Positions 20,007 through 39,357 of a DNA stretch of 44,044 nucleotides are shown in pieces. The stretch covers positions 1 to 44,044 of IMG/VR virus record IMGVR_UViG_3300042691_033264; one strand, 5' to 3'. This DNA comes from a virus. Position numbers and translations under genes: made by a program. The notes beneath the pieces were generated by a model. The model was not told the DNA's origin and did not search any database. It worked only from the letters and a program-made list of their open reading frames with translations. The stretch's first letter is position 1. Every line of letters begins with the position of its first letter.

Positions 20007-20414
20007 ATGTCTTGGAAATTTAAGGGAAATATTGTTACAGAAGAAAACACTCCAGAGGGTGCGATTGGTTTTGTCTATAAAATCGTACATATCCCTACTG
20101 GTAAATTCTACATTGGTAAAAAATCATTAACACAAACAAGAAGGTTAAAACCTTTAAAGGGAAAGGTTCGTAAGAGAGTTGTAAGAAAAGCATCCGATTG
20201 GGAAAAGTATTACTCATCTAACGAATGGATAAAAGAGCAAGTAAAGGCTGGAAACGCCGGAGATTTTGAGAGAGAGATTATTCAGTTCTGCTTTTCCAAA
20301 AAATCATTAACTTATTGGGAAGTTTGGTGGCAATTCAAATTAGATGTTTTGATGGACCCGCAATCTATTAATGAAAATTTAATGGGAAAATTCTTTCGAA
20401 AGGATATATATTAA
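20007..20414 (+). CDS. GIY-YIG (SegE-like) endonuclease-like protein
   Basis: 135 residues. GFVYKIVHIPTGKFYIGKKS (about residues 21-40) is a divergent GIY-YIG strand pair (the first half reads FVY), followed by a basic loop (LKPLKGKVRKRVVRKASDWE) and KYYSSNEWIKEQVKAGNAGD. LTYWEVWWQFKLDVLMD supplies a conserved Glu near the expected metal-binding position, and NLMGKFFRK ends the domain. This matches the SegE-like GIY-YIG proteins widely carried by T4-like phages. Known relatives are homing-type or free-standing nucleases. It lacks a clear DNA-recognition extension, so it may be a housekeeping phage nuclease rather than a mobile element. Confidence 0.8.
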   Translation: MSWKFKGNIVTEENTPEGAIGFVYKIVHIPTGKFYIGKKSLTQTRRLKPLKGKVRKRVVRKASDWEKYYSSNEWIKEQVKAGNAGDFEREIIQFCFSKKSLTYWEVWWQFKLDVLMDPQSINENLMGKFFRKDIY

Positions 20415-25028: not shown

Positions 25029-28000
25029 ATGGCAGTAATAAAGAAATACGCAGATGTATTAACTCAAAATTTAACTTTGTTTCAAACGTATATCACAGAT
25101 ACGGCTCCAAATTCTAAGTATTTTAAAATTACAGAATTTAAGGATACATTTACTGGTGGTAAAAACGGATTTTTGATAGAAGGTTCTGAACACTTAAAAG
25201 AATCAACAGAAATAAAGATTCAAATTTTAGATGTAAATGGTGACCCTATTTACTATGAACCTGGTAATGGTGTTCCTGAATATTATGAAGGTACATCAAA
25301 ATTGGTTGCTGTTTATATATACGAAGATACACCAATTGGTTCTGCAAAAATTACAATATTAGGTGAATTAAAAACTTATGTAGATGATAATGGTATTGTA
25401 CAACAAATACCAGATGAATGGAAAAATGTATATAATTTAAAATGGGAAAAAGATTTTCAGGTAAATAGATTATTATCTAATGAAGATAAAGTAAGATTTT
25501 ATAGAAGACCTGTTGTAAACATTGAAGAAATTGTAAAACCAATTTATTCTAATGTTGTAGCAACAAAAACACAAAAAGGATATATTGATGGTATTTCTCA
25601 AGCACCAATCCAAGGACAGCCATTAGTAAATTATACATCACCAGCATCATATCTTTTACAAATAATTGATGATACCAATTGGACAGGTTCTGTAGTTGAT
25701 ACATATTTACAAACTGATTTAGGATATTCACCTTTAGTTACTGAACTTGTAAATAATAAGGAATTAATAGTACAAACTCCATATACTTCAAATGGATTGG
25801 TTGCAAATTTTAGTAATGTAGGATATACGGCATCATTTAATTATACAGAAGGTGTTGATAATTTAAAAACAGCCTTAACCGGTTCATTTGCAAAAATAGA
25901 ACTTACTGATTTAACAACATTTGTTGGTGATTGTGCTAGAGTTAAGATATTTAGAAAATCTCAATCCGATTTATCTGATTATCAATTTGTACAGGAAATA
26001 AAATTAGAATCAAATGAACTATTGGTAGATTTAGAAAGTACTTTAAAAAATCAAGAATATTATGGTATTTTTGATGGTAATAATCATAAAGAGTATTGGA
26101 TAACATCATCAAATAGTTTAACAACGGAGTTTAATCAGACTTATTTATTTGATTCTATAAAATTAGATGGTAGTGCGGTATCATCTACTTATTTTTATAC
26201 ATCAAAATCACTTTTATTAACGGAAGGTATTGAATATAGTTTACAATTTGATTCTAGAATTCAACAAAATATATCTCAAAACTATTTTATAAGAGCATTT
26301 ATAAGTGGTTCTAGAACAACAAATATAAATGGAAATGCAACAATAGTGCAAGTTGAGCAAGATATCATAAAAATAAATTCTTCAAATGCACTTTTACAAA
26401 AGCAAATAAAAATACAAAACTTTACATCGGAAGAAATTGATAATGCTAAATTATATTTTGAAGTAATTGGTTCTGGTTGGTATATTGCAAATATTAGTTT
26501 AACAGCAGCGCAAGAAACCGCATATTCACCAGATGAAATTACTTTTATACAATCAGTTCCTAGAAGTTTACCAATTGAAACATTTGATTATCGTTTTGAA
26601 TTTTATGATATAAACAATAACTACATTCCTGTTTTAGTTGAAGCAAGTAAAACATTTGATGGTGGTAATTTACAAACTATTAGAAAACAATTAAGATTAA
26701 TACCATCGGCAACAGGATTTCAATTTGATTCCGGTTCTAATCCAGTTCCACCTACTGTTATTACTGTTGAAATAGAAAAAACATTATTAACTGGTTCTGT
26801 AACATTTACATCTCAGTCATATGACTTTTTTGGAAATGCACTATCGGGCTCAGATTATACTGCTTCTTGGACTGGTCAGCAATATCCTGGTAGATTGGAT
26901 AATATTACTGGGGCAACCCCATTTTTAACTGTTGCAAATTTTACAGGTTCAAGAACCGATATTAATGTTCAATTGGTAACTATAACGGGTGAATGTGAAG
27001 GATATACTGATACGATAAACATTTACAAAATATTAGATGGATTTGGTGGGGTAAATCATATTATAAGACCATATAGAGGGACTCAAATTAGAAATAGTAG
27101 TACCGCATCTTTAGAAATACAAGCAGTTAGAATAGATGGTATAAACGATATTCTTTTAAATGCCGGTGCTCAGAAAAATTTTGGAAATATTCAACTGCAT
27201 GTTATTTCAAAGTCATTAGAAGGAATTGAAAAATTTGTAAACCTTGCATATGTTACTCAAAGTAATATGTTTGAAGGATTGACAACGGGTTCAATTGGTA
27301 CACAAGAAATTAATTATAATGCAACTTTTACTAGAGATTCAATTGATTTTAGAAGAATAATTTATTTAATGCCATCATCATCAGCAGCTGGTAAATTTGC
27401 GTATGAGGCATCTTCTTCCGTTTTAGCATCTATTGTATTGGAAGACTTGCAAGATGGATTAGATAGTGGTAAAGTTGTATTTAATGCAGATTCTTTTACA
27501 ATTAATCCTAGACTAGATATTGAATTTAAACCTGTTTTTGCATTTGCAACCGCATCATTTGCAAAAAGAGCAACTGCTGGAGAAAATGAATATATAACAT
27601 CATCGTTTCAGGTTTATCCATCAATGTCAATTAATAAAGATTATGTGCCTGAATATTGGATGTATTATCATACACAAAGTTTAGACCCAACTCTTACTGT
27701 TACTGCTATTGATGATAATAAATTAGTTATACCATCACAAGTTCCATCAAATTCTAATGTAAGAAGTCCTTTACAACAAACTAAAAATCTAACATTAACT
27801 TTTACATATACAGAACCTTGGACTTCAGCATCGGTAAGTTTTGATAAAACATTTACAATTATACCTGAAGGTAAACCAGGAGATGAAACTATTATATTTG
27901 AAATAAATCCAATTAGTGTAAATTTAAAAGCAAATTCAAGAGGTGATGTAACAAGCTATGACCAATCGGCTACGCAAATTAGATTAAAGCAAGGTTCTCG

Positions 28001-31000
28001 TTATTTAAAATTTAATAAAACAAGAACAGCAGGTACTTTCTATACAGCATCTCGTTCAATTAATTCCGATTTTTGGATTACAGGTAGTAATATAATGACT
28101 GGAAGTTGGATTGATAATGTACCTTTAGGGTCTGCTTATGATGAGTATCTTTTAGTAGGAAACGCAAGTAAATTTAATGATTTAAGTGGTAGTATATTAT
28201 ATAATTTAGAAATACAACCATATTATACATCTTCGGTATATACATCAAGTATAACTCAAAATTATACAAAAACATTAGATGGACCAGAACCAATACAAAT
28301 AATTATTTTACCTACATCTGTTGCGTTAAAAGCAGATGAAGTTGGTTATGTACCATTAGAAAATTATACGGCAGCAAATACTAAAATTCAAGTAAAAGAA
28401 GGTAATGATTTTTTAAGATTTACAACACAATCAACCGCACCTGGAACTTGGAGAATTAATAGAGTTGAAACAACGGGGTCTTTAAATGTTTGGAATATAA
28501 GAACTGGTTCGTTATCATCATCATCATTAGACACTGCAACTTTAAATTTTAATAGATTTGATTATCCTTATGTATCGGCAAGCGCAGTTTACACAATTCA
28601 AGTGTATCCATACGCATTAGGAGCTGGACATTTATACACATCATCAATTTATACTCGTACACAAACATTTACAAAAACTGTTGCACCACCAAATGCACGT
28701 TCAGTTGATTTAAAGGCATCATCATATACAATAAATTACAATAGAGATGGATTTAAAACAACTCCTGAAGGTGGTGTTGATTTAACAGCAACTGCCTTTA
28801 ACACAACAGGCTCTGTTTGGTTTAGATGGTATTATATAGATGTGGATGGAAGCGAACAAGTTTGGCAAGGACCAGACCCAGAAACAACAGTAGGTGCAAA
28901 AGAAGCAATTCTTAATATAGATGCATCAGATGCTGCTGGGCCTGGTGAAAATAAAACTTGGAAAGTTAAAATTTGGGATGGGGATCCTGATGGAACTAGT
29001 CCAATAGCTGCTGGAAATAAACCTGTTAGAGCAGAAGGACAATTAACAATTACTGGTGTTAAAGCTGGAGCAGATGCATATAAAATTGTTGGAACTAACG
29101 AAAACACATCTATATCAGGAGACCTTTGGACAAAAAATCTAAATGGAACTGCAATTAGATTAACAACTTTTAAAGGTACAACTGAATTAGAAAATGTAAC
29201 AAAAAGTATTGTAACAAATAATGGATACCCCACACCAATACAACCTGATGATTACGATTATTTGGGTAATTTAATTGGTAATTTAGGATATTCATCCGCA
29301 TCTATTTATTCAAAATCAAATTGGGTAACTCAAAGTATAAGTAGATTCACAACTACCCCGGCACAAGCTCCTAATTTATCCGATTGGAGAAAATGGGGTG
29401 TTTCTCAATCTGCAGAAATTGTTTATAAAATTGATTTTGAAAATGGAAGACAATCTCAATTTGTAACACAATCTCTATCAGTACAATATACACCACCAGC
29501 TCCATATAATGTATATATGACGAATGAAAATTCGGCAATAGTTAATAGAGTTTCTGGTGAATTGGAGTTTAATAATACTGGTACTGTAATAAAAGCTTAT
29601 AGAGGTAATACTGAACTTACACATAAACCAAGTGGATTTAGTGGACCTCAATGGGATGCTTATGATGAAGTTGGATATCCAAATCAATATGTAGTTTCAA
29701 TACTTTCATATTCATCACATTTAGCATTACCATCTCCGTATAACACACCAAATGCTATACTTCCTGGTAATCCGGCATATATGCCACCTATTGTTGGTTG
29801 GACAGCGCCTGAAACTAATTTAACCGGAGAAATTGTTTATCAAATAGATTGTGAATATGTTTCTGGAAGTATTAGTAGACCTGGAACTACATTGTTTAAA
29901 ACACAATCATTCTCTGTTCAATTTGAAGGAGCAGTTGGGCCTGGTATTGTAATGAGAGGTGAATGGAGTGACCAAACCGATTATATAGGAATGGTTGAAA
30001 CAACAAATAATCGTAGAGATGCGGTAATTTACAATGCAGTGCCTGGCACCACATCGTATTACGCAGCTGTTAGTGGTTCGGGTCCTAACACATATGTAAA
30101 TCCAACAACTTCTACTTTTTATGTTGGTGGTTCACCACCTGCTGGGTTTGTTTTAATTGGAGATAAACAACCTGATACCGAACTTGACTATTGGGAATAT
30201 TTGGGACAAGAAGAATTCTTTGTGGCAGCTAAGATTGCAATTTTTGAAGAATCTTATGTTAAGAATACAATTAATGTTGGTACTAAAAATGGTACTGGTG
30301 CATTTGCAAATATTGTAATAGCTGGTGGTAGAACTGACCCATATATTGCTATCGGACAAAATGCAACAGTAGGTACTGCTGGTATTGGTGGTTCATCTTT
30401 AAATCCTGGTGGTTCGGTTATTGGATACGAAAGACCTGGTATATTCTTAGGAATTTATGAGCAACCAATTGGTTCTGGTGGTACAACTGGAAGATTTTCA
30501 ATTGTAAATGGAGCGGGTGATAGATATCTAAAATGGAATGGTAGCAGTTTGGAAATTGCAGGAGATATAACTGTAACCGGTGGTAACGCCGCATCTCAAG
30601 CTGGCGTAAGTGGTTCGATAGCATCTGGTTCTTATACATCTATTAATGTTGCGGCGGTTCAAACAGCTGTAGCTGTAAATGCACTTAGTGGGTCATTGGG
30701 TGCTATGGCAGCGATTAATTCAATCAATAGTGGTAACGCTACTACATTTATTGGACCTGGTGTAATTGTAGCAAATATGTTTGCTGGTACAGCAATTCAA
30801 TCTACAAACTATGTAGCTGGTTCTGACCCACTATTTGCACAAACTGGTACATTTATAAACTTAGCCGGAAGTTCGGTTAGAATGCAAGGATTTGCAGTTG
30901 ATAGTTCAGGAAACGCACATTTTAAAGGAGCACTTAATGCAGCAACTGGAACTTATAGTGGTTCTATGAGTGTTGGTACTGGTGCTAACTCAATTACAAT

Positions 31001-32480
31001 GGCTAATGGTGTATTAAGTGGACCTGGCTTTACTTTGAGTACCTCTGGATTGTCTGTTACAAATGCAAGCATTGCTGGTACAATTAACGCAAATGCTGGT
31101 TCTATTGGTAACTGGACAGTAGATTCCGATACTGGAAATTTGAGAGATAGTACAAATAGAATTTTCTTTGACCCATCTTTACCTGGATTGGCAATTAAAG
31201 AAAGTGGTACAACTCGTCTTAAAGTAAACTATGGTGCATTGACTGATTTGGGCGGTTCATCTATAAGTTTATCCGCAGAATCTTTAGTTTATACTAATAG
31301 TTACGCATCTTCTGTTGGAGTTAGTATTGATGTGGAAAGTACAGGACAAAACTTTACTGTACCTGCGGGGTACTATGTAGATTCTAGTGTAGTGTTTCCA
31401 TCCGCAGCGGCCGTAATAGATTCTTTCAATAGACAAGGTTATATGGACTTGTATTGGGGATATAGAATTTATGATGGTGCAACCTTAGTTTCCGAAGTTA
31501 TTATTGCTTCAGATTGGTGGAATGGTGGAGTTGATGAAACTTATGCAAATTTTAATGGATATACTGGAACATTTGGATTCTCACCACCAAACTCAGCCTC
31601 AACTACATATACATTTAAAACATTCTTTGTTTGCCAAGGATTTCAATATAATACTGGTGGTAGTGGTTCTGGATTTAGTGTAACCTTTAGTGAAACAACA
31701 CCAGCAATATCGGCAACATCAAATATAAATGTTGTAGAATTAACAAATGATGGTATTCAAGTTGCAACATCAACAGATAGATATATAAAGTTAAAAAGAG
31801 AAAATAGTTCGGCTGCTGCTGTATTGGAATCTAAAGGATTTTTGAAAATTATTGGAGATGGCTCAACCACACCAATTCAAATATCTGGAACAACTGGTGG
31901 AACCGCTATTGATATAGCTAGTAGTACTGGTATTATTAATACAAATAATAATAGTATTACAATGGGAACTGGCCAATTAACTTGGAAATCTAGTAATTTA
32001 AATAATGCTAGTTTAACTCAAACAACTCAAGGTGGACAAACATTTCCTACTGTATATTTACAAAATTTATATAGTGCAGGTGGTGGTACTATTAGAGGAT
32101 TGGAAGTATCATTATCAAACTGGACAATTGGTAGAGGTACTTCATCTAGAAGATTAAAATACGATATTCAAAATTGGACACCTACAAATTTATTAGATAC
32201 TATAAATAATATTCCTGTAAGAACATTTTATTGGAAAGTAGATGAGCAGTTGGAAAATCCAGAACTACAAATTGGTATGATTGCAGAAGAAGTTGTTGAT
32301 GCTGGATTACCACATTTGGTAGATTATGAATGGTTTCCAAAAGACCCAACTGATCCTGATGGAGAAAAGGAATATTTAACAGCTGGTTTTGATAAAGTAG
32401 GATTGACGTTTGTTTTATGGAAAGCAGTTCAAGAATTAACTAAAAAAGTTAAAGATTTGGAAAATAAATTGGGTTCTTAA
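25029..32480 (+). CDS. Giant tail fibre with C-terminal S74 self-cleaving chaperone
   Basis: 2483 residues. The N-terminal 180 residues are a probable virion-anchoring domain (FQTYITDTAPNSKYFKITEF). The shaft is Ser/Thr/Gly-rich beta with tandem Ig-like repeats: two units around 27890-28290 and 28300-28690 (FEINPISVNLKANSRGD against IILPTSVALKADEVGY) and two around 29080-29300 and 29510-29720 (GTNENTSI against MTNENSAI). From about residue 2370 there is a Peptidase_S74/endosialidase intramolecular chaperone. In TSSRRLKYDI a Ser five residues before the Lys fits the Ser-Lys dyad; GMIAEEVVDAG and a terminal coiled coil follow. The chaperone should trimerise the fibre and then cleave itself off. 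The long Thr/Ser surface makes it a candidate acceptor for the downstream sugar operon. Confidence 0.9.
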   Translation: MAVIKKYADVLTQNLTLFQTYITDTAPNSKYFKITEFKDTFTGGKNGFLIEGSEHLKESTEIKIQILDVNGDPIYYEPGNGVPEYYEGTSKLVAVYIYEDTPIGSAKITILGELKTYVDDNGIVQQIPDEWKNVYNLKWEKDFQVNRLLSNEDKVRFYRRPVVNIEEIVKPIYSNVVATKTQKGYIDGISQAPIQGQPLVNYTSPASYLLQIIDDTNWTGSVVDTYLQTDLGYSPLVTELVNNKELIVQTPYTSNGLVANFSNVGYTASFNYTEGVDNLKTALTGSFAKIELTDLTTFVGDCARVKIFRKSQSDLSDYQFVQEIKLESNELLVDLESTLKNQEYYGIFDGNNHKEYWITSSNSLTTEFNQTYLFDSIKLDGSAVSSTYFYTSKSLLLTEGIEYSLQFDSRIQQNISQNYFIRAFISGSRTTNINGNATIVQVEQDIIKINSSNALLQKQIKIQNFTSEEIDNAKLYFEVIGSGWYIANISLTAAQETAYSPDEITFIQSVPRSLPIETFDYRFEFYDINNNYIPVLVEASKTFDGGNLQTIRKQLRLIPSATGFQFDSGSNPVPPTVITVEIEKTLLTGSVTFTSQSYDFFGNALSGSDYTASWTGQQYPGRLDNITGATPFLTVANFTGSRTDINVQLVTITGECEGYTDTINIYKILDGFGGVNHIIRPYRGTQIRNSSTASLEIQAVRIDGINDILLNAGAQKNFGNIQLHVISKSLEGIEKFVNLAYVTQSNMFEGLTTGSIGTQEINYNATFTRDSIDFRRIIYLMPSSSAAGKFAYEASSSVLASIVLEDLQDGLDSGKVVFNADSFTINPRLDIEFKPVFAFATASFAKRATAGENEYITSSFQVYPSMSINKDYVPEYWMYYHTQSLDPTLTVTAIDDNKLVIPSQVPSNSNVRSPLQQTKNLTLTFTYTEPWTSASVSFDKTFTIIPEGKPGDETIIFEINPISVNLKANSRGDVTSYDQSATQIRLKQGSRYLKFNKTRTAGTFYTASRSINSDFWITGSNIMTGSWIDNVPLGSAYDEYLLVGNASKFNDLSGSILYNLEIQPYYTSSVYTSSITQNYTKTLDGPEPIQIIILPTSVALKADEVGYVPLENYTAANTKIQVKEGNDFLRFTTQSTAPGTWRINRVETTGSLNVWNIRTGSLSSSSLDTATLNFNRFDYPYVSASAVYTIQVYPYALGAGHLYTSSIYTRTQTFTKTVAPPNARSVDLKASSYTINYNRDGFKTTPEGGVDLTATAFNTTGSVWFRWYYIDVDGSEQVWQGPDPETTVGAKEAILNIDASDAAGPGENKTWKVKIWDGDPDGTSPIAAGNKPVRAEGQLTITGVKAGADAYKIVGTNENTSISGDLWTKNLNGTAIRLTTFKGTTELENVTKSIVTNNGYPTPIQPDDYDYLGNLIGNLGYSSASIYSKSNWVTQSISRFTTTPAQAPNLSDWRKWGVSQSAEIVYKIDFENGRQSQFVTQSLSVQYTPPAPYNVYMTNENSAIVNRVSGELEFNNTGTVIKAYRGNTELTHKPSGFSGPQWDAYDEVGYPNQYVVSILSYSSHLALPSPYNTPNAILPGNPAYMPPIVGWTAPETNLTGEIVYQIDCEYVSGSISRPGTTLFKTQSFSVQFEGAVGPGIVMRGEWSDQTDYIGMVETTNNRRDAVIYNAVPGTTSYYAAVSGSGPNTYVNPTTSTFYVGGSPPAGFVLIGDKQPDTELDYWEYLGQEEFFVAAKIAIFEESYVKNTINVGTKNGTGAFANIVIAGGRTDPYIAIGQNATVGTAGIGGSSLNPGGSVIGYERPGIFLGIYEQPIGSGGTTGRFSIVNGAGDRYLKWNGSSLEIAGDITVTGGNAASQAGVSGSIASGSYTSINVAAVQTAVAVNALSGSLGAMAAINSINSGNATTFIGPGVIVANMFAGTAIQSTNYVAGSDPLFAQTGTFINLAGSSVRMQGFAVDSSGNAHFKGALNAATGTYSGSMSVGTGANSITMANGVLSGPGFTLSTSGLSVTNASIAGTINANAGSIGNWTVDSDTGNLRDSTNRIFFDPSLPGLAIKESGTTRLKVNYGALTDLGGSSISLSAESLVYTNSYASSVGVSIDVESTGQNFTVPAGYYVDSSVVFPSAAAVIDSFNRQGYMDLYWGYRIYDGATLVSEVIIASDWWNGGVDETYANFNGYTGTFGFSPPNSASTTYTFKTFFVCQGFQYNTGGSGSGFSVTFSETTPAISATSNINVVELTNDGIQVATSTDRYIKLKRENSSAAAVLESKGFLKIIGDGSTTPIQISGTTGGTAIDIASSTGIINTNNNSITMGTGQLTWKSSNLNNASLTQTTQGGQTFPTVYLQNLYSAGGGTIRGLEVSLSNWTIGRGTSSRRLKYDIQNWTPTNLLDTINNIPVRTFYWKVDEQLENPELQIGMIAEEVVDAGLPHLVDYEWFPKDPTDPDGEKEYLTAGFDKVGLTFVLWKAVQELTKKVKDLENKLGS

Positions 32481-32512: not shown

Positions 32513-32770
32513 ATGGAAAAACATACTGAAAAATTAGAAGAATCTTTAGTAGAAAAACTAAAAGAACTTAGAACCAAACAAAATGAGTTAATTGTTAGTA
32601 TAGGACAAGTTCATTTAGAGTTAAAACAAATGAACAATGTAATGCAATCTATGGAATCACAATATCTAACAATTACGGCAGAATTAAACGATAAATTGAA
32701 TGATTTGGAAAAGAAATATCCAAATGGTGAAGTTGATTTAGTTGATGGTACTGTTATTTATGAAAAATAA
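32513..32770 (+). CDS. Small coiled-coil protein, paralogue of the 36559 gene
   Basis: 85 residues. Residues 1-70 are a continuous coiled coil (EKLEESLVEKLKELRTKQNE). The end, DLEKKYPNGEVDLVDGTVIY, matches by eye the 36559 product (AIDDKYPQGRINLADGTIMY). In both, a coiled coil runs into a YP-G-x-(D/N)L-x-DGT-Y motif, so they are likely duplicates. Coupling to the fibre gene upstream (32 bases) suggests a fibre-assembly or attachment role, but no family is recognised. Its stop is immediately followed by the TTTG of the next promoter. Confidence 0.75.
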   Translation: MEKHTEKLEESLVEKLKELRTKQNELIVSIGQVHLELKQMNNVMQSMESQYLTITAELNDKLNDLEKKYPNGEVDLVDGTVIYEK

Positions 32771-32811: not shown

Positions 32812-34989
32812 ATGGGAAAGAAAAAGTTACTCTATGTATGTCCACATCTATCTACTGGTGGACAGCCACAATACACATACAAACAAATAAAACACTTTAT
32901 AAACGATTTTGAAATACAAGTTGTTGAAATAAATAATAGTGGTGGTACGGCTTTTGTTGTTCAAAAAAATAGAATAAAATCTTTAGTAACATTACATACA
33001 TTGGGTTCGGATAAATCTGAGATAATTTCTATAATAGATAATTTTAAACCTGATATTATACATTTTCAAGAAATACCTGAATTTGATTTATCAACTGATA
33101 TTTTGGAAAAAATATTTAAAAAGGATAGAAATTATTTTATAGTAGCATCAACGCATGGTTCTTTTACAAATCCCGATGATATATACTATCATCCAGATAG
33201 ATATGTTTTGGTATCGGAGTGGAGTAGATTAAAATTTGAAAATACAGGTGTAGAAACTGTATTATGGGAATATCCAATAGAAAATTATACTTTTGATAAA
33301 ATTGCCGCACAAAATGAATTAGGTTTTGATTCAACTTGGAAACATATATTAATGGTTGGTTTATTTTCACCTGGCAAAAACCAAGCTGAAATATTTGATA
33401 TAGCAAGGCAATTGGAAAAATATAAAATTAAATTTCATTTTGTTGGAAACCAAGCTATGAATTATGAAGAATATTGGAGACCTTTAATGGAATTTGTTCC
33501 TGATAACTGCCACATATGGGGAGAAAGAAACGATGTTGATACATTTTACGCAGCTTCTGATATGTTTTATTTTAGTTCTAAATTAGAATTGAATCCACTA
33601 TCAATAAAAGAGGCACTTTCTTATAAACTTCCTTGTATATTTAGGAAGTTGCACACTTACTTAGATACCTATGATAATAATCCATTGGTTACATATATAA
33701 ATGATGATTTAAAATTAACCAAAAGAATTATATTAGAAAAATTAAATCCTGATTTTTATGAATTGCCTGGTTGGTTTTCATATCAAGATTTATATGATGA
33801 AGTTGTTGAAAAAGTTCCACCATTTGCAAATGTAGTAGAACTTGGAACATGGTTTGGGAAATCAACAAATTATTTAGCTAGTAAAATTAAAAAATCTAAC
33901 AAAAAAATAAATTTCACAACAATTGATACTTTTAAAGGAACTGATGATGAAGATTTGCATAAAAGTATTGTTAAATCATTCGATGGTGATATATTTTATG
34001 AATTTATAGATAATACTGTGCTATCGGAAAATTATGAAACATTTAATATAATAAAAGATACATCTAAAAACGCAGCAAATCAATTTCAAAATTGTAGTAT
34101 TGATTTTATGATGATTGATGCAGGGCATACTTTTGAAGATGTTACAAATGATTTGAACATATGGTATAATAAAATAAAACCTGGCGGATATATTACAGGA
34201 GATGATTATGGTGGAAGTTATTTTCCTGGTGTAACAAAAGCAGCTGACGATTTTTTCTATAAACAAATAGCAAGAGGTAATCGTTCTTATATTAGAAAAA
34301 AGCCAAGAATACAAATTAAACATATGTTGACTAGGCCGGATGATATGAGAGAAAGAGTATCCATTCAATCTATAAAACAATTAGAAAAATATGGAATGGT
34401 TTATCAACCAATTGTAAATAAAGTTTATGAAGGATTGGCACCTGCAGAAAATTGTAGAAGACCCGAACATTTAAGTAAAGATAATAAGCCAGGAGAATTA
34501 TATCCTGGTGCTGGTCTTGGTTGGATAACTGGTAGGCACTATGGTTGTTATTTAGCACATAGAAACGCATTAGAAACTATGGATGACGAAAATTTTGATT
34601 ATACTTTAATATTTGAAGCAGATGCATTTATCTATACTGGTTTAGAAGAATTTGTTAATATAGTTCATAAAGCATGTTTTATATCCGAAAGAGATGATGT
34701 TTATTATATAGGATTGGCAGATAATCCATCTAAAGGTAAAGATAAAATAGATGAATTATTTTCAAAGACAGCTTATAATCAAGACCTAGCACATGCTTAC
34801 CTAATACCAAATCGTACTAAGAGTTGGTGGATGGATAGATTGGTTGATTGTGGGTGGGATGTTGGTGACCTTTGGTATAACCATGTATTTTACAATCATC
34901 CAAAAAATAGATATACAACTAATAAGGTATATAGTAAGCAAGCAGAAGGATTTTCTCTTCTAGATTTAACAGTTAAAACTTGGAGTTAA
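32812..34989 (+). CDS. GT4 glycosyltransferase / class I methyltransferase / GT25-like fusion
   Basis: 725 residues from the ATG at 32812 (a TTG four codons upstream falls inside the promoter). Residues 1-315 are a GT-B glycosyltransferase of GT4 type: STGGQPQYTY loop near residue 14, HILMVGLFSPGKNQ (178-191), and the E-x7-E motif E259-LNPLSIK-E267. Residues 335-475 are an SAM methyltransferase: VVELGTWFGKST (341-352), acidic D372 in TIDTF, DFMMIDAGHTFED (431-443) and IKPGGYITGDDY (455-466). Residues 500-725 resemble GT25 enzymes: GCYLAHRNALE (578-588) and the acidic triad E602-A-D604. It probably builds and methylates a short glycan. Substrates are unknown. Its stop overlaps the next start (TAATG). 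Confidence 0.85.
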   Translation: MGKKKLLYVCPHLSTGGQPQYTYKQIKHFINDFEIQVVEINNSGGTAFVVQKNRIKSLVTLHTLGSDKSEIISIIDNFKPDIIHFQEIPEFDLSTDILEKIFKKDRNYFIVASTHGSFTNPDDIYYHPDRYVLVSEWSRLKFENTGVETVLWEYPIENYTFDKIAAQNELGFDSTWKHILMVGLFSPGKNQAEIFDIARQLEKYKIKFHFVGNQAMNYEEYWRPLMEFVPDNCHIWGERNDVDTFYAASDMFYFSSKLELNPLSIKEALSYKLPCIFRKLHTYLDTYDNNPLVTYINDDLKLTKRIILEKLNPDFYELPGWFSYQDLYDEVVEKVPPFANVVELGTWFGKSTNYLASKIKKSNKKINFTTIDTFKGTDDEDLHKSIVKSFDGDIFYEFIDNTVLSENYETFNIIKDTSKNAANQFQNCSIDFMMIDAGHTFEDVTNDLNIWYNKIKPGGYITGDDYGGSYFPGVTKAADDFFYKQIARGNRSYIRKKPRIQIKHMLTRPDDMRERVSIQSIKQLEKYGMVYQPIVNKVYEGLAPAENCRRPEHLSKDNKPGELYPGAGLGWITGRHYGCYLAHRNALETMDDENFDYTLIFEADAFIYTGLEEFVNIVHKACFISERDDVYYIGLADNPSKGKDKIDELFSKTAYNQDLAHAYLIPNRTKSWWMDRLVDCGWDVGDLWYNHVFYNHPKNRYTTNKVYSKQAEGFSLLDLTVKTWS

Positions 34990-36134
34990 TGATATACGAT
35001 AATTTGAAAAAAAATCTATCTAATAAAATTGATAAACAAAATAAAGTAACTTATCATTTTGTAAGAGGTCCATTTGTAGAAATAAAAGGACCAAAAACCG
35101 CAAAATATACTGTTGAATTTATAGATAACAATAATAATGAGTTGAAATATAAAACAACTATAAGTAATAATTGTTGGTGTAAGTGTAATATAGAATATTT
35201 TGTAGATTGGAAAATAAAAATTTATGAAAATGAAAAGTTATGGAATGAATTCAACTATAATGCTTCTGATAAAAGAGTTTACATAGCATTGGATTCAAAA
35301 GCATTAGGTGATACGTTATCTTGGTTTCCTTATTTTGAAGAATTTAGAAAAAAACATAATTGTAAATTAGTTGTATCAACATTTATGAATGATTTCTTTT
35401 CATCCGAATATAAAGAAATACAATTTATAAAGCCGGGCGAAACAGCAGATAATTTATACGCAATGTATTGTGTTGGATTGTTTTATAATGAAGATAATTC
35501 TATAAATTTATTTAAAAATCCAGTTGACCCAAAGACAGTAACACTTCAAAAAATGTGTTCTGATATTTTAGGATTATCATTTAAAGAAATAAAACCAAAA
35601 TTAAAAAGAAAAAATCCACCATTAGAAAAAATTAATCAAATTTGTATTGGTGTATTTGGAACTGCTCAATCAAAATTTTGGAATAATCCCACTGGGTGGC
35701 AAGATGTTGTTGATTGGTTAAATAGTAAAGGATATACTGTTAAACTTATATCAAAAGAAGATGATGATTATATGGGTAATAAACTACCTCATGGAATTAT
35801 CAAACATCCAAACGGTCCTATTGAATTGGTTATGGATGAATTAAAAAAATCTAAAGCTTTTATTGGTATTGGTAGTGGATTAAGTTGGTTGAGTTGGGCA
35901 TTGGATGTACCAACTGTTTTAATAAGTGGATTTTCATATGATTGGGCCGAAATGGAAGATTGTATTAGAATAACAACTCCAAAAGGAAAATGTGAAGGAT
36001 GCTTTAATCGTTTAAGATTAGATGCTGGTGATTGGAATTGGTGTCCGGACCATAAGGGAACTGAAAGACAATTTGAATGTACCAAATCAATTACTTCCGA
36101 AATGGTAATCAAAGAATTGGAGAAATTTTTATAA
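34989..36134 (+). CDS. TibC/Aah-like protein O-heptosyltransferase
   Basis: 381 residues from the ATG at 34989 in the TAATG overlap (a TTG start three codons upstream is possible). It follows the autotransporter strand-loop-strand O-heptosyltransferase family along its length: a beta N-terminal domain (HFVRGPFVEIKG, YTVEFID), YIALDSKALGDTLSWFPYFE with catalytic-type D108, FGTAQSKFWNNPTGWQDVVD, FIGIGSGLSWLSWALDVPTV, and the four-Cys iron finger C335-EG-C338, C352, C364 with GDWNWCPDHKG. TibC and Aah transfer heptose from ADP-heptose to Ser/Thr of autotransporter adhesins as dodecameric rings. No autotransporter gene is present, so the acceptor here is unknown. The neighbouring fibre is the obvious candidate. 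Stop overlaps the next start (TAATG). Confidence 0.9.
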   Translation: MIYDNLKKNLSNKIDKQNKVTYHFVRGPFVEIKGPKTAKYTVEFIDNNNNELKYKTTISNNCWCKCNIEYFVDWKIKIYENEKLWNEFNYNASDKRVYIALDSKALGDTLSWFPYFEEFRKKHNCKLVVSTFMNDFFSSEYKEIQFIKPGETADNLYAMYCVGLFYNEDNSINLFKNPVDPKTVTLQKMCSDILGLSFKEIKPKLKRKNPPLEKINQICIGVFGTAQSKFWNNPTGWQDVVDWLNSKGYTVKLISKEDDDYMGNKLPHGIIKHPNGPIELVMDELKKSKAFIGIGSGLSWLSWALDVPTVLISGFSYDWAEMEDCIRITTPKGKCEGCFNRLRLDAGDWNWCPDHKGTERQFECTKSITSEMVIKELEKFL

Positions 36135-36523
36135 TGCAAAAAATTTGGATAAATGGAACTTTTGATGTTTTACACATTGGCCATATCAGGCTTATGTTAC
36201 ATGGTGCATCCTTGGGCACCTTACGAGTGGGGATTGATACGGATGAAAGAGTTTGTTCAAAAAAAGGAGTGGGAAGGCCGTTCAATACGCTGGCTGACCG
36301 TATGGAGTTTGTATCCGCTATCAATGGTGTTGATTCTGTGGTGTCTTTTGGAACTGATGATGAATTGGTAGAAAGAATAAAAGAATGGGGACCTGATATT
36401 ATGGTAATTGGAAACGATTACAAATATCACCAAATTATAGGAGTTGAATATGTTCCGAAAATAGAATTTTTTGATAAGATACCAGGGTTTAGTACAACAA
36501 ACATTTTAAAAAATAAAAAGTAA
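36134..36523 (+). CDS. HldE C-domain-like heptose-phosphate nucleotidyltransferase
   Basis: 129 residues from the ATG at 36134, which shares its A with the preceding stop. The cytidylyltransferase fold is clear: INGTFDVLHIGHIRL with H14-I-G-H17, ADRMEFVSAINGVDSVVSF (54-72), GPDIMVIGNDYK (86-97) and STTNIL (120-125). The block GRPFNTLADR and the GNDY-x-x-H-x-I-I-G turn fit the adenylyltransferase half of HldE (RfaE domain II) better than TagD, so ADP-heptose is the likely product. It should supply the donor for the O-heptosyltransferase next door. No HldE kinase half, epimerase or GmhA/GmhB is in the window, so precursors would come from the host. The first 200 bases look richer in G+C than the flanks. 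Confidence 0.82.
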   Translation: MQKIWINGTFDVLHIGHIRLMLHGASLGTLRVGIDTDERVCSKKGVGRPFNTLADRMEFVSAINGVDSVVSFGTDDELVERIKEWGPDIMVIGNDYKYHQIIGVEYVPKIEFFDKIPGFSTTNILKNKK

Positions 36524-36984: not shown

Positions 36985-39357
36985 ATGAAAGGATTAGCAA
37001 AATTTTTAGTAGAAACAATATTGGGAGAAGCGGACCAAATGGACAAAGTAGTTGTTGTCTATTCTGGCCGCTTTCAACCTTTTCATAAGGGTCATTACGC
37101 AACATATGACCATTTGATTAAGAAGTTCGGAAAGGATAATGTATATATAGGAACTTCAGATGTAACCGATTCGAATAAATCTCCATTTGGGTTTAAGGAA
37201 AAGAAAGCTATAATGCAAAAGATGTTTGGTATCCCATCAAACAAAATCTTTAATGTACGAAACCCATACGCCCCAGAAGAAATATTAAATAAATTTAATT
37301 CAGATACAACTGGTTTTATAACTGTTGTAGGTGAAAAGGATTCATCACGTTTAGGTGGTAAATACTTCACTCCATATAAAGGTAAAGTAACTGAACCTTA
37401 TTTGGATAGAGGATATGTTTACGCAGCACCTTCACAACCAAATCCTATTAGTGGAACGGATGTTCGTTATTGGTTAAGTAGTGGAAGTGAGGCTGAAAGA
37501 AAAAAGAATTTTACAAAAGCATATCCAAAGTTTGATGACCAAATATTCAAAATGATTACTCTTAAATTGAAGAAATTAAAAGAGTGTATTAACGAAGAAA
37601 TCAAATTGAATGTAAAAGTTGGTGACCAAATTCTAATGGGTAAATTTAAGAACAAAAAAGTTGTTGTTAAATCCATAGGTAAAGATGAGTGGGGAATGCC
37701 AACAATCAATGGTAAGAAAGCTGTAACATTTCGAATTCCTAAAAAAGATATTAAAGAAGGATTGGGTGGTGGAGCTGGTGTTGGTTTAAGTTTAGCTGGT
37801 GGATATATAAATGGTGCACCAAATCCAAAAGATGTTAAGAAATTAAAATCAAAGTTGGATAAAGATGGTAGTGAAGAATACCAACCAGTAAAAGAAGACC
37901 AAATACCTGGCGGATTGGCAAAGGGAAAAACCCTAATTGATTTGGCTAAGAAGTGGGATAGTAAAGGATACTATGACCCAAAACAATATGCAGCAGAATA
38001 TATTAAACCTAAATTAATGAAAGGTATTAAGGTTGAAATGGAACACACAACTGATGTTCGTATTGCAACTGAAATAGCTATGGACCATTTGTGGGAAGAT
38101 ATTAACTATTATGATAAATTAGCTAAAATAGAAAAACCAACAAACGAAGGTTTAATTTTAGAAGGTGGAGCTTATGGACATATGGCACATCCATTTGATA
38201 TTGAAATGGGTTTAACATTTGGTGACCTTAAACAAATTGTAGTAAGAGCACTAAATGGTGATTTGGAATTGGCAAGAGAGAAGACTGATGGGCAAGCATT
38301 AGCAGTTAGTTGGGTAAATGGTAGATTAGTTGCAGCTCGTAACAAATCACACCTTAAAAACAAAGGAGCTGGTGCTATGACAATAGGACAGGTAGCAGAT
38401 AAGTTTGCTGGTAGAGGTGGATTGACTGATGCATATAATTTTGCTATGAGTGACCTTTCAAAGGCAATAGGAGCACTTTCTGAGCCACAAAGAAAAATGA
38501 TATTCAAAGGTGGTAGTTGTTTTATGAATTTGGAAGTAATATATCCAACTTCGGTAAATGTAATTCCATATGGACAACCATTATTAGTATTTCACGGAAC
38601 TTTTGAATATGATAACGAAGGAAATGTAATTGGTGAAAATCAACAAGCAGCTAGAATATTGGCTGGTATGATTAAGCAAGTAAATGGACATGTTCAATCT
38701 AAATACACAATTCAAGGACCACCAATACAAAAACTTCCTAAATCAGAGCATCTTGCTAAGTTACAAGGAAAATATATTTCTATGATTAGTAAACTACAAT
38801 CAGAATTTGGATTATCCGATTCTGATGGTGTAGCTGATTATCATCAGGCTTGGTGGACTAAGTTTGTAGAAAAAGGTGCAAAGAAATTAGATACACAAGA
38901 AAAAATAGGATTGGTTAAAAGATGGGCTTTTGGTGATAAATCATTCCGTATTAATACAATCCAAGATGCAAAATTAAAAGCTTGGGCTGAGCAAACCGAT
39001 AAACAAGACCAACAAAAGATTTCAAAACAAAATCTAATGAAGTTTGAAGAAATATTCTTAGGAGTTGGTGCAGATGTTTTATCATTTATGAGTTCGGTAT
39101 TAACAGCAAATCCAGAATCGGCTAAACGCCAAATGGTTAGTAGACTTGAATCTTCAATACAACAAGTAAAAGCAAGTGGTGACCCCAAAAAGATTGCAAA
39201 ACTTAAATTAGAATTGGAAAGATTAAATGCTTTGGGTGGATTTGATAAAATAGTACCAAATGAAGGTATTGTGTTTGTATATGGTGGAAACACTTACAAA
39301 TTAACCGGCGCATTTGCTCCGTTAAATCAGATTTTGGGTATATTCTTTGAAAAGTAA
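36985..39357 (+). CDS. NadM-like nucleotidyltransferase fused to a ligase-like adenylation domain
   Basis: 790 residues. Residues 20-200 are a nucleotidyltransferase of the NadM/cytidylyltransferase type: YSGRFQPFHKGHY with H34-K-G-H37, SGTDVRYWL (156-164) in place of the usual ISSTxxR. Residues 205-262 are a small basic beta module (VKVGDQILMGKFKNKKVVVK). About 300-385 are helical (EHTTDVRIATEIAMDHLWED). From about 395 to the end there are polynucleotide-ligase-like motifs in order: K433-T-D-G (motif I), CFMNLEVIYP (512-521, possible III), EGIVFVY (760-766, IV) and YKLTG (771-775, V). The arrangement suggests nucleotidyl transfer on both ends, and covalent lysyl-AMP chemistry in the second half. 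Substrate is unknown. Related proteins occur near head genes of marine T4-like phages (recollection, not checked). Confidence 0.72.
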   Translation: MKGLAKFLVETILGEADQMDKVVVVYSGRFQPFHKGHYATYDHLIKKFGKDNVYIGTSDVTDSNKSPFGFKEKKAIMQKMFGIPSNKIFNVRNPYAPEEILNKFNSDTTGFITVVGEKDSSRLGGKYFTPYKGKVTEPYLDRGYVYAAPSQPNPISGTDVRYWLSSGSEAERKKNFTKAYPKFDDQIFKMITLKLKKLKECINEEIKLNVKVGDQILMGKFKNKKVVVKSIGKDEWGMPTINGKKAVTFRIPKKDIKEGLGGGAGVGLSLAGGYINGAPNPKDVKKLKSKLDKDGSEEYQPVKEDQIPGGLAKGKTLIDLAKKWDSKGYYDPKQYAAEYIKPKLMKGIKVEMEHTTDVRIATEIAMDHLWEDINYYDKLAKIEKPTNEGLILEGGAYGHMAHPFDIEMGLTFGDLKQIVVRALNGDLELAREKTDGQALAVSWVNGRLVAARNKSHLKNKGAGAMTIGQVADKFAGRGGLTDAYNFAMSDLSKAIGALSEPQRKMIFKGGSCFMNLEVIYPTSVNVIPYGQPLLVFHGTFEYDNEGNVIGENQQAARILAGMIKQVNGHVQSKYTIQGPPIQKLPKSEHLAKLQGKYISMISKLQSEFGLSDSDGVADYHQAWWTKFVEKGAKKLDTQEKIGLVKRWAFGDKSFRINTIQDAKLKAWAEQTDKQDQQKISKQNLMKFEEIFLGVGADVLSFMSSVLTANPESAKRQMVSRLESSIQQVKASGDPKKIAKLKLELERLNALGGFDKIVPNEGIVFVYGGNTYKLTGAFAPLNQILGIFFEK

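Follow-up and report, generated by a model that had tools for sequence, protein, structure and literature searches.

We report that the virus record IMGVR_UViG_3300042691_033264 carries, among its structural genes, a glycosylation cassette built around a predicted TibC/Aah-type O-heptosyltransferase. The window, i.e. the whole 44,044-base record analysed here, encodes T4-like structural genes on its + strand (portal, terminase, baseplate-type proteins and fibre). The cassette, at 32812-36523, lies between a fibre of 2483 amino acids (aa) with an 85-aa open reading frame (ORF) on one side and packaging genes on the other. With confidence somewhat better than even, we read it as serving the glycosylation of virion proteins in a T4-like freshwater phage, probably of a Bacteroidota host, whose TibC-type enzyme would heptosylate the phage's own fibres. 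It consists of three ORFs at 32812-34989 (725 aa), 34989-36134 (381 aa) and 36134-36523 (129 aa); neighbours overlap by one base within TAATG at both junctions, as an earlier first-pass annotation of this DNA had described. The features of the cassette are as follows.

32812..33786, + strand: GT4 (GT-B) glycosyltransferase domain, residues 1-325 of the 725-aa protein (PF00534, 9e-13, over the cut-off)
33787..34326, + strand: class I S-adenosylmethionine methyltransferase domain, residues 326-505 (PF13578, 1.4e-18)
34327..34986, + strand: GT25-like (GT-A) domain, residues 506-725 (PF01755, 6.9e-4, below the cut-off)
34989..36134, + strand: predicted TibC/Aah-type O-heptosyltransferase (TIGR04414, 3e-83; AlphaFold2 predicted local distance difference test, pLDDT, 91; template modelling (TM) score to 4rap 0.86)
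35310..35312, + strand: D108, predicted catalytic base, TibC D110 (kept in 44/44 phage and 6/6 bacterial sequences)
35991..36080, + strand: four-Cys iron finger, C335, C338, C352 and C364 (invariant in 44 phage and 6 bacterial sequences)
36134..36523, + strand: HldE-C/HldC-like nucleotidyltransferase, probable ADP-heptose-forming step (TIGR02199, 6e-24; phrog_7878, 1e-32)

The 381-aa protein scores 279.9 bits against TIGR04414, the equivalog model of TibC/Aah O-heptosyltransferases (cut-off 200); the TibC proteins of Mel-JY01 and LR756501 score 317.4 and 304.7. A phmmer comparison with TibC (PDB 4rap) gives an E-value of 2e-54, and the AlphaFold2 model, built on an alignment of 42 relatives, superimposes on TibC over nearly the whole chain. 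A weak Glyco_transf_9 match would also fit a different role, in which the cassette remodels host lipopolysaccharide (LPS), capsule or exopolysaccharide and the TibC-like protein acts as an LPS-type heptosyltransferase; cyanophages with HldE-C-like, kinase and phosphoheptose isomerase genes, in which a TibC relative was not found, could be taken as precedent. We consider this very unlikely. The fold comparison disfavours such an enzyme, since the LPS heptosyltransferases WaaC and WaaF match the same model with a TM-score of about 0.5, and the TibC-specific N-terminal beta-barrel region, thumb residues and iron finger are all present. Profile and fold searches both group the protein with TibC, away from LPS heptosyltransferases. 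The outcome that the first-pass annotation had named as counter-evidence, a place in a non-heptosyl GT9 branch with a Cys finger not conserved in phage relatives, does not occur; these relatives keep the finger.

Residues were mapped to TibC by the alignment from the PDB search alone. By this mapping D110, T226, K230, W305 and F368 of TibC correspond to D108, T225, K229, W300 and F362 of the window, the thumb pair F265/V266 to Y261/M262, and the finger cysteines C339/C342/C358/C370 to C335/C338/C352/C364. D108, T225, K229, W300, the four cysteines and F362 occur in all of 44 diverse phage sequences; D108 and the cysteines are also invariant among 58 distinct close phage sequences, and no close relative lacks Y261-M262, which most diverse phages have too. 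The D110A variant of TibC is inactive (PMC4358343). With the bacterial autotransporter heptosyltransferase (BAHT) family (TIGR04414, PDB 4rap/4rb4), the phage enzyme shares the fold, the N-terminal beta region, the catalytic Asp, the Thr/Lys/Trp donor contacts, the four-Cys finger and, probably, paired hydrophobic residues at the thumb tip, and the first-pass identification of a TibC/Aah-type enzyme with D108 and a four-Cys finger is upheld.

We next consider how the cassette is distributed. The close set of relatives comprises 80 IMG/VR loci that came from a protein search and were hence selected for TibC. They share the order fibre, small ORF, glycosyltransferase fusion, TibC, variable donor genes, 131-aa protein, cytidylyltransferase-like protein, terminase and portal. 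A second set was chosen by terminase, with enough upstream DNA required; some of its contigs overlap the TibC-search set. TibC lies upstream of the terminase in all 22 of these loci, directly in 21 and 13 kb upstream in L168. The cassette is core to the clade, and the status of an optional, accessory gene was rejected on this 22/22 result. All cassette domains are under purifying selection, with ratios of nonsynonymous to synonymous substitution rates of 0.05-0.13. Given this constraint and the recurrence in dozens of contigs, the arrangement is not due to chance. The three-gene adjacency, which the first-pass annotation had suggested seeking in other phage genomes, is found in these dozens of contigs, and unrelated phages have gene fusions. 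By terminase, two cultured phages come closest: Flavobacterium phage immuto (57%), which is not one of the four phage records positive for TibC, and Microcystis phage Mel-JY01 (54%), where TibC forms the C-terminus of a 1226-aa protein. The Mel-JY01 locus (PP395634.1, 4750-8430) encodes GT4 and TibC domains, and its annotation as 'methyltransferase FkbM' masks the TibC part.

The last gene of the cassette would provide the sugar donor. Against TIGR02199 the 129-aa protein scores 84.5 bits, below the equivalog cut-off of 181.5, yet this is its best NCBIfam family; HIGH at residues 14-17 (36173-36184) and STTNI near the C-terminus fit the HxGH/STT motifs. The window encodes the last ADP-heptose step alone, in HldE-C-like form. 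The 'ADP-heptose synthesis' of the first-pass annotation is therefore to be narrowed to this step: the remaining pathway is not in the window, and 33 of the 80 close relatives are without an adenylyltransferase at this place. More specifically, downstream of TibC 30 close loci have an HldE-C-like gene plus a PfkB kinase, 15 have HldE-C alone, as in the window, and 33 have neither; two could not be scored, and HldE-C follows TibC directly in 45 of 78. The kinase falls closest to heptose-7-phosphate kinase (TIGR02198, HldA-like; 92 bits against a cut-off of 345), and among NCBIfam families the heptose one leads clearly for both donor genes. Unrelated phages (L179, L180, L199 and L200) have the HldE-C/HldA pair again after their GT4-TibC fusions. 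In Lachnospiraceae, bacteria not known for classical autotransporters, a TIGR04414 protein adjoins a full HldE and a GmhB-like phosphatase (L086, L087 and L243). This recurrence with TibC is what chiefly favours ADP-heptose as the donor despite the loss of an adenine-contacting Arg described below. Donor genes alone do not imply TibC, because cyanophages carry related ones without a detected TibC relative: P-SSM2 and P-TIM68 encode a carbohydrate kinase and a nucleotidyltransferase homologous to that of the window (37-43% identity), and have isomerase, epimerase or carbamoyltransferase genes instead. In one clade relative (L167:3468-4064), a gene resembling 2-oxoglutarate-Fe(II) oxygenases (PF13640, 22.8 bits, below the cut-off) stands between the HldE-C-like and HldA-like genes.

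For the 725-aa protein, the GT4 and methyltransferase parts of the fusion proposed in the first-pass annotation are borne out, while the GT25-like part stays under the Pfam gathering cut-off (PF01755, 20.0 against 24 bits). In that part, an EAD motif occupies the place of the acidic DxD-type motif of GT25. The best PDB match of its AlphaFold2 model (pLDDT 67, with the likely first strand outside the modelled stretch) is the collagen galactosyltransferase COLGALT1 (E-value 1e-4, query TM-score 0.46-0.54), which would be a suggestive but weak pointer to a collagen-like acceptor. The same phages have fibres with Gly-X-Y repeats; in contrast to collagen, these are Gly-Ser-Ser and not Pro-rich, and they are collagen-like by sequence. 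A glycosylated collagen-like protein is known in BclA. The methyltransferase domain is dispensable, since it is missing from relatives L032-L034, L056, L167 and L212.

The search was widened beyond the clade with the TibC domain of Mel-JY01 as query; of 300 matching stretches, 299 encode relatives. Among 34 diverse loci, TibC is usually one part of a longer polypeptide that also has GT4 or methyltransferase domains, and in 28 a fibre-like ORF is at most four genes away. Fibre-like genes, defined by composition (S+T of 18% or more, G of 7% or more, length of 100 aa or more) with no family match required, make up 25% of genes at distances 1-5 from TibC versus 5% at 6 or more (p = 3e-9). Two contigs, G251 and G252 (of L333 and L336), contain two or three TibC-like stretches each, some of them adjacent; gene duplication serving several acceptors is possible.

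This neighbourhood bears on the main rival, namely that the cassette modifies a host surface protein (an adhesin or another beta-solenoid) to block superinfection or change host behaviour, as TibC does on TibA/AIDA-I. The characterised TibC/Aah enzymes do modify bacterial autotransporters (PMC4358343), and in Paraburkholderia a 1745-aa Ser/Thr-rich gene comes after the TibC relative. We give this explanation a small chance: the gene is core and belongs to the structural block with the fibres rather than to the accessory genes, the fibre neighbourhood is retained across diverse phages, and modification of a host protein does not predict a link with phage-encoded fibres of (Gly-Ser/Thr-Ser)n type. 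The first-pass annotation had left open whether a virion or a host surface protein is heptosylated. The TibC-type enzyme, the donor-activating gene, the additional glycosyltransferase and methyltransferase domains and the location near the fibre agree with its proposal, and its idea of host receptor masking becomes less likely because the cassette is core and lies among virion genes. DNA glycosylation is common among phage glycosyltransferases (PMC12619734), and the enzymes could in principle modify phage DNA bases. The GT-B fold gives matches to T4 alpha-glucosyltransferase. These matches are distant (TM-score about 0.3), and the fibre-region location and the TibC-specific features point elsewhere; additionally, a base-hydroxymethylation gene was not recognised in the block, although no search was aimed at one. 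The probability of a DNA target is, in our view, negligible.

Which fibre would be the acceptor? The nearest fibre, a possible acceptor, lies upstream of the cassette, together with a small ORF.

25029..32480, + strand: 2483-aa fibre, structural neighbour and possible acceptor (Peptidase_S74 chaperone domain at residues 2372-2431, PF13884, 6.7e-11)
32513..32770, + strand: 85-aa small ORF between the fibre and the glycosylation genes (position conserved in relatives)

The cassette had been placed directly behind a Ser/Thr-rich fibre. Neither part of that description stands: the 85-aa gene intervenes, and the fibre, at 19.7% S+T, is barely above the other structural proteins of the window (10-20%). 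Its role as a specially Ser/Thr-rich acceptor was accordingly rejected. Profile searches of the 85-aa ORF give weak coiled-coil-type matches only, and a fibre chaperone is one possibility.

A better acceptor candidate is another class of fibre, encoded elsewhere in the genomes of longer clade relatives. These have open frames of 3000-4700 aa with (Gly-Ser/Thr-Ser)n runs of up to 813 residues, which the 44-kb window is too short to reach, and many fibre-like ORFs in TibC phages bear long runs of this kind. Matches to the Collagen family over the cut-off occur in 13 of 14 TibC-positive contigs of at least 100 kb versus 2 of 10 TibC-negative phages. For the reverse test, contigs of at least 60 kb were found solely by a DNA pattern for 13 (Gly-Ser/Thr-Ser) triplets, and random contigs picked with arbitrary AT-rich words served as controls. 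TibC is present in 17 of 30 repeat-selected contigs versus 0 of 20 random ones (p = 1e-5), and within 10 kb of the repeat in 9 of 16, where 2.7 would be expected (p = 3e-4). Both control sets are unmatched for host and phylogeny, which leaves the effect size uncertain. In the contigs of L254, L255 and L256 (G002, G001 and G003), giant (Gly-Ser/Thr-Ser)n fibres are followed by a conserved set of small genes.

We propose that, before tail assembly or in its course, the TibC-type enzyme moves heptose from ADP-heptose onto the hydroxyl groups of Ser in fibres that the phage itself encodes, those rich in Gly-X-Ser/Thr being the likeliest; TibC itself acts on Ser and not on Thr (PMC4358343). The GT4 and GT25-like domains may attach further sugars, and the methyltransferase domain, where present, may cap or decorate the glycan. 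The HldE-C-like protein would supply the donor out of host heptose 1-phosphate; some relatives would add the HldA-like kinase and others would depend fully on the host. Such a coat could stiffen or protect a collagen-like fibre, or tune adsorption. The computations show homology to TibC with its fold and catalytic residues, core status in the clade, a place in the fibre region, and repeated fusion with glycosyltransferase or methyltransferase domains and repeated association with donor genes and (Gly-Ser/Thr-Ser)n fibres. The sugar and the acceptor, which are unproven, are what we infer here, as are the sequence in which sugars are added, the host and the benefit. More tentatively, phages may possess their own TibC branch devoted to O-heptosylating giant Gly-Ser/Thr-Ser collagen-like fibres, in which a GT4/GT25-extended coat would stabilise or protect the proline-poor repeat.

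Several observations weigh against fibre heptosylation. The first group concerns the acceptor. The fibre of the window is without (GxS)n runs, and the giant repeat fibres of the clade lie tens of kb from the cassette. An acceptor could not be identified through the autotransporter repeat TIGR04415, for which the phage contigs tested, adjacent fibre included, gave no match over the cut-off and one sub-threshold match of 14.7 bits. The association between TibC and repeat fibres may partly stem from common ancestry or host group. The second group concerns donor supply. GmhA was not detected by TIGR00441 in 16 contigs, and of 20 contigs searched with the broader SIS_2 model one, the 343-kb contig of L189, gave a match over the cut-off; GmhB was not detected by TIGR01656 in 20 contigs. 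Clade contigs yielded neither gene in these searches, on which a complete phage-encoded ADP-heptose pathway was rejected, and heptose precursors, for many relatives ADP-heptose itself, must therefore come from the host.

The third group concerns the nucleotide pocket. Arg-286 of TibC contacts adenine, is required for activity and is highly conserved in the family (PMC4358343). It corresponds to V281 in the window and is not Arg in 41 of 44 phages, so that 3/44 phage versus 6/6 bacterial sequences have Arg at this position; because it is replaced, ADP specificity is not assured from the sequence. The stereo-determinant Pro-300 is Gly in the window and Gly or Ser in phages. A quick FastTree tree places all phage TibCs in one group (support 0.92), separate from the few bacterial sequences sampled. 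By these sequence criteria, and because Arg-286 is not kept, we name the 381-aa enzyme a divergent phage branch related to BAHTs with an altered nucleotide pocket, not a standard BAHT. Besides the separate branch, the two substitutions and the missing TIGR04415 acceptor, it differs from BAHTs in being linked or fused to GT4, GT25-like and methyltransferase domains and linked to phage fibres. The pocket changes would suit a TibC homologue with a different nucleotide sugar as its donor, or one that puts another sugar on fibres, with the neighbouring nucleotidyltransferase and kinase making that donor; HldE-C and HldA scores under the equivalog cut-offs, and the relatives with neither donor gene, would suit it as well. 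To this we assign a similarly small chance as to the host-protein rival. T225, K229 and W300, which contact phosphate or heptose, are invariant, the heptose family is best for both donor genes, and these genes accompany TibC again in unrelated phages and Lachnospiraceae.

The probable sugar-coating of their own fibres by these phages would be of a kind not described before. Reports of TibC-type or O-heptosyltransferase enzymes in phages were not found in the open-licence literature, and PHROGs contains no family matching the TibC-type protein. We know of no TibC-type enzyme in the virion glycosylation of mycobacteriophages. Glycosyltransferases of these phages are thought to decorate their own structural proteins (Freeman et al. 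2023, via PMC12619734); there the targets are capsid and tail-tube C-termini, whereas the present case concerns fibres in a clade of aquatic phages and includes a gene for the heptose donor. Protein heptosylation has so far been known from a few bacterial adhesins and virion glycosylation from very few phages. If our reading is true, a dedicated enzyme family, concealed by annotations like 'methyltransferase FkbM', sugar-coats the fibres in a large group of lake phages and in many unrelated phages, huge ones included. Unexplained Gly-Ser-Ser fibres would thereby gain a function and the presence of ADP-heptose genes in phages one reason, and the coating would amount to a viral counterpart of collagen glycosylation derived from a bacterial adhesin-modifying enzyme. 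The isolated phage Mel-JY01 makes the idea directly testable.

The host assignment draws on gene-start signals. A Shine-Dalgarno-like motif precedes 3 of 28 window genes, no more than by chance, and the leaders are A-rich. A-rich leaders without Shine-Dalgarno motifs fit Bacteroidota hosts, and the host is probably one of these. The freshwater or lake origin is our assumption from the isolates and from the nature of the contigs' source samples.

Two further ORFs of the window were noted. At 36985-39357 lies a 790-aa protein with a NadR/nicotinamide mononucleotide adenylyltransferase-like N-terminus and DUF5661, the middle part of which varies strongly in length across relatives (about 790 to 1330 aa or more for the protein). 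In the gap between structural and replication genes, a small ORF at 20007-20414 resembles GIY-YIG-type nucleases by eye, and L168 also has ORFs similar to it by eye.

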